Source: Phoronis ovalis
Taxonomy: Eukaryota; Phoronida; Phoronidae
Length of the DNA: 22,180 nt
NCBI GenBank assembly: GCA_028565635.1
Contig: JAOXYB010091273.1
Span: 1 to 22,180 of the forward strand
Reading direction: 5' to 3'
Made by a program: the position numbers and the translations under genes. This document shows, in pieces, positions 980 through 18,349 of this stretch. The notes beneath the pieces were generated by a model that searched no databases, had not been told where the DNA came from, and worked only from the letters and a program-made list of their open reading frames with translations. Numbering within the stretch: position 1 is the first letter of the stretch; each line of letters opens with the position of its first letter.

Positions 980-3900
980 CTAGTGCATTTCTTCTCCAAG
1001 ATGAGACAACTGTCTTAATAGCTGTGATGCCGTCAGAAGTTCACTACATCCATAAATAATTTTCTTGGTGTCCTAAAAAAGAAACTCTAATTATTTATTA
1101 TACATTTTTTCCCATCTAGAACCAATTTAAATCTTTTGATCTTGATACTTTATGATGAAATTATGAATAATTTATCAATAAAACTATCTTTCCTCAAAAA
1201 CCTTACTTTTCAATACCACGGCATATTTACGAGTTACACATAGATTCCACATACAAAATAGTGGGTTGAAATGCTATTTAAAGGAGGTTTTGTGATGTAA
1301 CAAACTGTGGTTGTGAGGTTAAGGGGAAACCAACAATCATTACCAGTCAGGTAGTGTCTACTACTAGTAAAGAGAGCTACTGCTACTGCTACTGCTACAC
1401 TATCACATGTCATTATCTCGTCGCAAGTTTATACTTGATATAACACATGACCCCATGTTACTCCTGAATGTACAGTAATATATTGAAATATCAATGCAGG
1501 CAATAAGGACCTTTAAGTTGTGCTTAATCCAAGAAAGCTGAGGATACACTGGAACCTCTATGAACTAAACAACTTATTATCAGTTTCATTATCAACTTAG
1601 TATCATATTATTGTACTTCAGTTAACTCTTAGTGTATGGAGCTGACATGGGTGTGCCACTTGCTTGGGTACTTTTTCTTGATGAAATTTGGTTTATATTT
1701 GGGCACTGTTTATGTCCCTGTGGTATATTTTGGGAATAGTTTTTGAGACCTAGCCGTGAATTGCATTGGGAAAGGTATATTTTGAGTCTACTGTTCACAG
1801 AAAATAGTATATAATATCTCCTAAAACAAATAAAAAATCTTGAAATTTTGTGTTTGTTCTGGAATTTTATATCTAGGGGTCCACAATTCCACATTTCAGG
1901 TATAGAATGGATCCATATATATTACCCTCAGCGGCACATCCCCACTCCAAATATAACTAAGAACCCCTTACAAATACAAATGATAAGTGTCTATTTTCAG
2001 TTAGTTGGTACAGTGGACAATAATAATTTTGCCATCTACTTCGTTGAAAAGGAATGCGATCTTATATCTGGCAGTTTCTCCCATAGCGCTAACATTTTCT
2101 GACTGAAACCTGTGGTTCACAGAAGATTTCAGATATGCAAGATTGTTTTATAGTGAAATATGTTAATACCTTAATTATTGTAAAAATATCAGGGACCCCA
2201 ACTTTAAGACTGTCTTTCAAGTTTATATTTGTAGCAATCAGGATTCAGGAAAGTCATACAATACACCACTAAAGAATTGTGCATATTATTTTCTGTCACT
2301 ATACCTTTGCATAATCTTGTAAGTTTTGATATTCTATATAATTTCCACCTCCAACCACAAAAACAATACAATCTTGAAATGGAGACCGACTTCTTGGAAT
2401 TGAACTACAATATAAAAACTCAACATAATTTGCTTGTAGTTCTTACGAAACTAAATTCTTGACAAAGTTGATTAGTTCGTTTTGGAAACTGTTGTGTCCC
2501 TTACAAGGCACATTGGTGGGTTTGTTGTTAAAAATCCGTGTTTTAGCAATCTTTACCGCACAAGAACAAACAGTGTACACGAAAGTATTACAAAATATTA
2601 AAATTTACTATAATTGACTTTGTTTACTTCTACTTTATGCACTGTTTGCTACACAAAACAATAAAAAATATTTTACATATCAACATCATTTCCAAAAAGT
2701 TCACCTCCTTTCCGAAAGAACGTATGTCCAGGGGCAATCTTTCATAATATGAAAGAACCCGTAAAAAGAGCCATTTTCCGATAGTTTGCGAAGCTTAGTT
2801 ACGAAAAACCCCTGTAAAGTTATCAATTACTAATTACAAAACTATTCCCTCTCAAATTTTTGGATTTAACCATTAGTCCCAGTTTTAAGATTAGTTGTCA
2901 ATAGACTATTTGCATGCACTAGACAATGTAGTGAAACATTTTCCAGCCTTACTGACCTGTCTGCCCTGAGCATTTTTGGATCAAAATATCTGTAATCATC
3001 AGTTTCTGGTATAGATCTAAGCTCCATAAGAGAATCAACTAATCGAGTCACCGGCAGTTTCTGAAAATTCAACAAAACACATCTATTTAACCAGATATTG
3101 TTACAAATTTCCCTATTCAATAATTATTTAATTAATTCTGCATAAAAAAAAGCTGAACAGACTGATTTTGTTTTTGGCACACAAATGCATATTACAACAA
3201 AACTCATATCTTAACAAATCTTCTGAAAAGGCGTGTTTATTATTTCGTCTGCAGGTCCTTATCTACCACAGGATGACAACAGCCGGAGTACTTATTTTGC
3301 TACTAAATGGGCTAAACGTATCAAACAAATGAGGAGTACTTCACAAGAATGTCTGCAACATTCTATGTAAGAATGTATTAAGAATAATGAAGACATTTAT
3401 ACGTTTATGGAGCAATTACAATAAATTTTCTACATTTGTAAATAGAATGCTGATTAATATATAAATATACACATATTCTAATAAAGCATATAACAACATC
3501 CATGGTTTCTTTAGTCCATTGTCATAATGTGATGGTCGACCACATCAAAGCATAAAGAATCTCCACTTACATGTTTCTTGACCACCAAGTTTTTTACACC
3601 TTCCATGGCAAACTGAGAGGCTTGGGACATTAACTTTGAAAACATGCTGATGGTTTTTGTACCACCTCCACCATACTGTGAAGGAGGTGCTATCATTTTG
3701 GCATAAGTCCTACAAAATTATATCATGTATAAACAAAATATTGACTTATTCATTAACAGTTCTATGTTAACTCATGCAGTGTACTCAAAAGGCTATTCAA
3801 AGAAGGGGCTTTACTCACTTTTTGCTCCCCCAATTATTTCTTACTTCAATGGTTAAACATGCTGTTCATTCAAAGGAAATTTATTTTCTAAATCAGTTTT

Positions 3901-18300: not shown

Positions 18301-18349
18301 GTTTCAAAACACTGATCGCAGGGCAAATGTTTTAGCAAAAATTCGATAA
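12363..18349 (+). CDS. ZW10: ZW10, kinetochore RZZ / ER NRZ tether subunit; 7 coding exons, 747 aa
   Basis: ZW10 works with ROD and Zwilch at kinetochores to recruit dynein and Mad1/Mad2. With RINT1 and NBAS it forms the ER tether for Golgi-derived vesicles, bound to syntaxin 18. Coding exons: 12363-12399, 13399-13601, 13928-15042, 15374-15549, 15979-16182, 17229-17363, 17976-18349. All joins are GT/AG and phase-consistent (2244 nt). Landmarks are FVNEVL (res 4), a heptad-rich N-terminal coiled coil (about 16-80), [19 protein letters not shown] (about 275), [14 protein letters not shown] (about 378), [33 protein letters not shown] split here as [11 protein letters not shown] (about 518), [23 protein letters not shown] and the C-terminal [10 protein letters not shown]...[13 protein letters not shown]. 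Human ZW10 is about 779 aa. No disabling change is seen. The exon-5 donor is duplicated in tandem. Confidence 0.95.
12500..13023 (+). mobile_element. Repeat copy 2: about 520-bp non-autonomous DNA-transposon-like element with terminal inverted repeats
   Basis: The left end (about 12503-12543) is a near-perfect inverted copy of the right end (about 12978-13018). Both read inward as oligo-G, then GGTCAATATGAAAGTGGGTA, then a CATGTTCCAACA core; I count two mismatches over about 41 bp. Both ends are bordered by oligo-G/C. Internal units begin CCC(C)TAA and contain GAAGTG, in two blocks around a unique middle (about 12640-12785). It has no ORF, so it is MITE-like. Target-site duplication could not be resolved because of the G-runs. 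It occupies much of ZW10 intron 1. The superfamily is not recognised. Confidence 0.75.
12642..12672. promoter_or_regulatory. E-box and CCAAT box inside repeat copy 2
   Basis: The palindrome TCACGTGA (E-box CACGTG at 12642-12647) is followed by CCAAT at 12668-12672. Both are in the unique middle of copy 2, about 280 bp downstream of the ZW10 start codon. They match bHLH-Zip (USF/TFE type) and NF-Y sites by sequence only. Confidence 0.3.
16161..16234 (+). repeat. Perfect 37-bp tandem duplication spanning the ZW10 exon 5 / intron 5 boundary
   Basis: Bases 16161-16197 are repeated exactly at 16198-16234. Each unit holds the last 22 coding bases of exon 5 and 15 intronic bases, including the donor AAG|GTATGG. 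Two identical donors therefore exist, at 16183 and 16220. Only the first keeps the frame with exon 6. Use of the second would add 37 nt and read into a TGA at 16197-16199. Confidence 0.95.
16235..17228 (+). other. ZW10 intron 5, remainder
   Basis: This is the largest ZW10 intron after intron 1. Apart from the tRNA-like relic and the second donor copy, I see no element or coding potential. It ends in a good acceptor TTTTCTTTTAG. ZW10 introns 2-4 and 6 (about 330-610 nt) are likewise AT-rich with nothing recognised. Confidence 0.6.
16429..16501 (-). pseudogene. Decayed tRNA-Phe(GAA)-like sequence in ZW10 intron 5
   Basis: Read on the minus strand, this 73-nt block has the order of eukaryotic tRNA-Phe. 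It has A-box TAGCTCAGTTGG, the loop CTGAATA with anticodon GAA, the variable AGGTC, and B-box GGTTCAATCC. Several stems no longer pair: acceptor positions 1-72 and 3-70, anticodon stem 27-43, and two T-stem pairs. Position 37 is T where tRNA-Phe has a purine. It is antisense to ZW10. A short T-rich stretch with ATTT repeats follows its 3' side (16379-16400), which may hint at a tRNA-derived SINE or retro-copy. Confidence 0.8.

Follow-up and report, generated by a model that had tools for sequence, protein, structure and literature searches.

A head-to-head SCFD1 (Sly1) and ZW10 gene pair in Phoronis ovalis, probably conserved in other animals

The genes for SCFD1 (Sly1) and ZW10 lie head to head in the genome of Phoronis ovalis, with 492 bp between their start codons. 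The window, i.e. the whole stretch of DNA analysed, is the complete contig C4602 (22,180 nucleotides) of an assembly of 77.4 Mb in 4805 contigs. The pair is real and is probably conserved, and it is an instance of an already known type, the divergent gene pair. We regard it as an even call that it is an old pair, with a single short region serving divergent transcription of both members.

Two intact genes in divergent orientation

The SCFD1 gene is located on the minus strand, at positions 980-11870. Spliced alignment with human SCFD1 as a guide delineated 19 coding exons and 18 GT-AG introns. The joined exons form an open frame of 629 aa that begins with the ATG at 11870 (start codon 11868-11870) and is followed by a TAG at 982-980. 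Residues 34-620 match Pfam Sec1 (E 1.1e-130), and the profile is covered from position 1 to 575 of 575. Among the matches listed (120 of 1744), the closest orthologue is that of Lingula (78% identity over 100% of the query), and every named match is SCFD1, the rest being without a name. Together with the full-length Sec1 domain, this identifies the gene as an SCFD1 orthologue. The P. ovalis sequence is unresolved beside Lingula, Owenia, Capitella and nemerteans in a tree of 22 rows, and falls outside an 11-row clade made up of molluscs and three other rows (support 100/99). Searching the whole assembly exon by exon with the Sec1 profile produced five matches, of which three fall on this contig and the other two on C1621; judged by eye, the C1621 peptides presumably correspond to VPS45. 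The detection of just two Sec1-family loci suggests that the assembly is incomplete, with the proviso that an exon-by-exon profile search can miss genes.

The ZW10 gene is located on the plus strand, at positions 12363-18349, as delineated by splicing, Pfam matches and orthologues. Its seven coding exons, separated by six GT-AG introns, encode a 747-aa frame that is closed by a stop codon. The product contains the Pfam domains Zw10_N, Zw10_middle, ZW10_C and ZW10_C2 in that order, by which we recognise it as a ZW10 orthologue. The search for homologues returned 47 proteins, to which an alignment-based second search added none. The closest orthologue is that of Owenia (50% identity over 100%), followed by those of Lingula (48%) and of Mercenaria and Lineus (46% each). 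The Zw10_middle profile has a single matching place across the assembly.

Two further observations concern the splicing of ZW10. The donor of exon 5 is spanned by an exact 37-bp tandem duplication (16160-16233), and use of the second donor would lead to an early stop. Intron 5 contains an 82-nt coding-looking stretch (16790-16871) flanked by good-looking splice sites. An ordinary cassette exon was ruled out for this stretch, because inclusion of 82 nt shifts the ZW10 frame; it would therefore be either a poison exon or a chance occurrence.

The two genes are on opposite strands with their 5′ ends facing each other, and the distance between them, measured between the start codons at 11870 and 12363, is below 1 kb. 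The first-pass annotation had given the same gene identities, orientation, spacing and coordinates, all of which proved exact in the spliced alignments, Pfam matches and orthologue comparisons. In human, SCFD1 and ZW10 are located on different chromosomes (14q and 11q). A pairing of the two genes is not described in the titles and abstract openings of the literature surveyed, nor in passages of a review on the tethering machinery (PMC4206994).

A ∼517-bp element with 42-bp inverted ends that are 95% complementary is present in intron 1 of ZW10 (12502-13018), and a partial copy is present in intron 1 of SCFD1 (11373-11611), so that copies lie on either side of the 492-bp region. The element resembles a short non-autonomous DNA transposon: of 624 first-look candidates in the genome, 40 were scored, and every one of these, the copy at 12502-13018 included, was a long match. 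Copies of one inverted-repeat element flanking the junction, in a fragmentary assembly of several thousand contigs, are what would be expected if two fragments had been misjoined near copies of one transposon. The copies, however, are confined to intron 1 of either gene and do not reach into the 492-bp region. A misjoin there would cut exon 1 off, whereas both exon 1 peptides continue as in their orthologues, and the linkage recurs in other assemblies. We therefore consider such an artefact highly improbable.

Other features of the contig and the assembly are the following. A gene for an SR-type splicing factor is located on the minus strand (20991-21878 and about 19980-20300), tail to tail with ZW10; it encodes an RRM (Pfam RRM_1, E 2.9e-16), and an arginine/serine-rich tail is encoded in further exons. 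The end of the contig (22020-22180) contains, as seen by eye, short imperfect caatccaaaatttt-type repeats. Elsewhere in the assembly, contig C1114 (loci L007 and L008) is a mitochondrial contig of 15.7 kb with genes on both strands. COX1 was named by profile and the other genes were assigned by eye from their translations, giving the order COX3-ATP6-ND3-ND2-COX1-COX2-ATP8 on one strand and ND1-ND6-CYTB-ND4L-ND4-ND5 on the other. ATP6 is thus located between COX3 and ND3, and its place is the sole difference from the order that we take to be that of the chiton Katharina. Published work states that the mitochondrial gene orders of phoronids and Katharina differ only in where atp6 is placed (PMC2678162), and that a large mitochondrial inversion is common to molluscs and Phoronis (PMC2728741). 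The order on C1114 thus makes a phoronid origin likely, and agrees with a non-molluscan lophotrochozoan as the source. A scan of C1114 for tRNA genes in bacterial mode found none.

Linkage of SCFD1 and ZW10 in other animals

About 10% of mammalian genes are arranged head to head within 1 kb, according to passages of PMC2194621, and the 492-bp spacing is therefore unremarkable by itself. The pairing is raised above chance because both genes are linked in other phyla. To score linkage we compared the size of the source contig recorded for the SCFD1 and the ZW10 protein of each species, an identical size being evidence of linkage and not of orientation or distance. Six named species had both proteins among the matches listed (47 for ZW10; 120 of 1744 for SCFD1); Mya, Mytilus and Saccostrea, with one gene each among these matches, fall outside the count. 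For three of the six, both proteins come from one contig: the brachiopod Lingula (478,381 bp), the annelid Owenia (39,264,044 bp) and the ribbon worm Lineus (29,083,594 bp). Different contigs were recorded for the bivalves Mercenaria (121,110,697 and 73,516,942 bp) and Potamilus (2,883,159 and 9,242,211 bp) and for the acorn worm Glandiceps (18,482,504 and 33,943,121 bp). The presence of the pairing in other invertebrates, which the first-pass annotation had proposed as a check, was thus borne out as linkage in half of the species, and did not hold in the other half. This linkage across phyla makes SCFD1-ZW10 a candidate conserved microsyntenic pair.

The strength of the three positive cases differs. 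For Lingula, the scaffold N50 was 0.5 Mb in the earlier assembly, and the newer assembly totals 329.3 Mb (passages of PMC13121700). Measured against this newer assembly, the chance that one 478-kb scaffold holds both genes is only ∼0.15%, and Lingula is therefore a strong case of linkage. The contig carrying both genes in Lineus represents ∼7% of a genome of 391 Mb (PMC8593623), which is also the share expected by chance. Co-location on a chromosome-sized contig in Owenia and Lineus could be what conserved macrosynteny alone would give. In addition, the three cases are not independent of each other because of shared ancestry.

These data bear on two alternative explanations. According to the first, the shared contigs reflect one ancestral linkage group and the head-to-head arrangement arose in the Phoronis lineage alone. 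This is consistent with the Owenia and Lineus evidence being just chromosome-scale, and with passages of PMC13121700 stating that spiralians keep ancestral linkage groups to varying extents. A location within the same 478 kb in Lingula, however, would be unlikely to follow from a location on the same chromosome alone, and we consider this explanation decidedly unlikely. According to the second, two housekeeping genes became neighbours in a gene-dense genome, where a nearby gene on the 5′ side is frequent, and stayed linked by inertia in some lineages, their common pathway being coincidental. The frequency of head-to-head genes in mammals, the separation of SCFD1 and ZW10 in three of the six species and the lack of a recognisable divergent partner of RINT1 (see below) all favour such a neutral adjacency. 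The shared Lingula scaffold and the common chromosome-sized contigs in Owenia and Lineus argue against it. We regard it as possible, although somewhat doubtful.

Together, the species comparison suggests an old linkage that is absent from some lineages. On this reading the linkage is older than the divergence of P. ovalis and Lingula, and its origin probably dates to an early lophotrochozoan; in the bivalves compared it was either lost or never present.

The region between the start codons

The region between the two start codons (11871-12362) is a candidate bidirectional promoter. It has a G+C content of 30% and an observed/expected CpG ratio of 0.83. This ratio exceeds the window mean, yet it is reached in 125 of 1085 overlapping windows of the contig, and it was therefore discounted as a sign of a CpG-rich promoter. 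Base composition, CpG, motifs and splice-site scores revealed no distinctive promoter feature in the region. Sequences that we take to be TATA-like and YY1-like motifs occur in the 492 bp, as do Inr and GACGTC; the YY1-like AAAATGGCG overlaps the SCFD1 start codon, and TATAAAA is located 54-60 bp before the start codon. These motifs are listed as such and were given no weight.

A weak candidate for a ZW10 5′-UTR intron is located on the plus strand at 12131-12261 (donor at 12131), with an alternative 3′ end at 12299. As many as 19 of 400 shuffles and 8 of 132 non-coding windows equalled its score, corresponding to a chance level of ∼5%, and even the shortest of the 24 coding introns (262 bp) would exceed it in length. 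Such an intron is possible. The SCFD1 side of the region contains no comparable splice signal, its score being reached in 275 of 400 shuffles. Five ATGs are present between 11961 and 12055, and one more at 12264. Because the former would burden a longer leader, transcription of ZW10 is predicted to start near 12056-12130; the ATG at 12264 would stay in this leader unless the later acceptor (12299) is used. The start of SCFD1 transcription is predicted close to its ATG. The two predicted starts would be ∼150-250 bp apart, which is the scale of one bidirectional promoter. A promoter common to SCFD1 and ZW10 is plausible.

Interpretation and comparison with known systems

The first-pass annotation had pointed out that both products act on the ER syntaxin-18 fusion machinery. 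In yeast, DSL1, the counterpart of ZW10, was named for its dependence on a SLY1 allele. This origin of the name was not found in passages of the review PMC4206994. The functional link itself was confirmed there: the syntaxin 18 complex includes ZW10 and RINT1, and the same precipitates contain Sly1/SCFD1, which probably binds syntaxin 18 directly. The same passages state that ZW10 belongs to the kinetochore RZZ complex, and common control may therefore serve general housekeeping. A search with the syntaxin 18 N-domain gave no match in the assembly, and the controls were likewise without matches.

RINT1, a partner of ZW10, served as a control. Its gene is located on contig C1973, and the ORF that we read by eye as its first exon starts near position 2489 of locus L018. 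Exon-by-exon Pfam analysis revealed no recognisable divergent neighbour within 2.5 kb. This analysis covered 10 of the 17 ORFs of at least 45 aa in the first 2.7 kb, including six of the seven minus-strand ORFs and the presumed first exon. Among the 10 ORFs scanned, none exceeded the Pfam cut-off, and two weak matches were obtained below it.

The reading to which we give an even chance, that of an old gene pair, could work as follows. SCFD1 acts as the SM protein for ER and Golgi syntaxins; ZW10 is a subunit of the ER tether and has a further role at the kinetochore. The two genes would also be adjacent and head to head in Lingula, Owenia and Lineus, and one housekeeping promoter would fire in both directions. 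The simplest reason for retention would be that both genes are needed and any break would leave one of them without its promoter. Another possible reason is that SM protein and tether are kept at matched levels. In favour of an old pair are the full length and intactness of both genes at close distance, the contig common to both in the brachiopod, the annelid and the ribbon worm, and the functional link. Against it are the three unlinked species, the chromosome-scale nature of the sharing in Owenia and Lineus, the region's lack of a distinctive promoter feature, a UTR intron near chance level and the lack of a recognisable pairing of RINT1 within 2.5 kb. Co-regulation of the SM protein with its tether, as the first-pass annotation proposed, is a fair hypothesis. 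A stronger version, in which one bidirectional promoter of an ancient lophotrochozoan pair sets matched amounts of SM protein and ER tether, was selected for their joint action and was dissolved where the coupling relaxed, appears unlikely to us.

Should the genes prove adjacent in Lingula, Owenia and Lineus, the pairing of a SNARE chaperone with its tether would have persisted since an early lophotrochozoan. The lineages in which they are apart would then provide a natural test between co-regulation and an unsplittable promoter as the reason for keeping divergent pairs.

The P. ovalis pair resembles known systems in different respects. Conserved metazoan microsyntenic pairs, reportedly described by Irimia and co-workers, are like SCFD1-ZW10 in that unrelated neighbouring genes are linked across phyla. 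SCFD1 and ZW10 are orthologues of members of the machinery that comprises the NRZ/Dsl1 tether, syntaxin 18 and Sly1; that link is between proteins, and passages of the review (PMC4206994) mention no pairing of genes. Human CDT2-INTS7 is, like SCFD1-ZW10, a pair of back-to-back coding genes that are separated by less than 1 kb and share a short upstream region, and passages of PMC2194621 describe this arrangement as conserved among mammals, where the two genes are 181-246 bp apart. The CDT2-INTS7 promoter is bidirectional by reporter assay, whereas SCFD1-ZW10 is known here from its sequence and has an AT-rich region. Finally, the products of CDT2 and INTS7 serve different processes (PMC2194621), whereas those of SCFD1 and ZW10 serve one machine.
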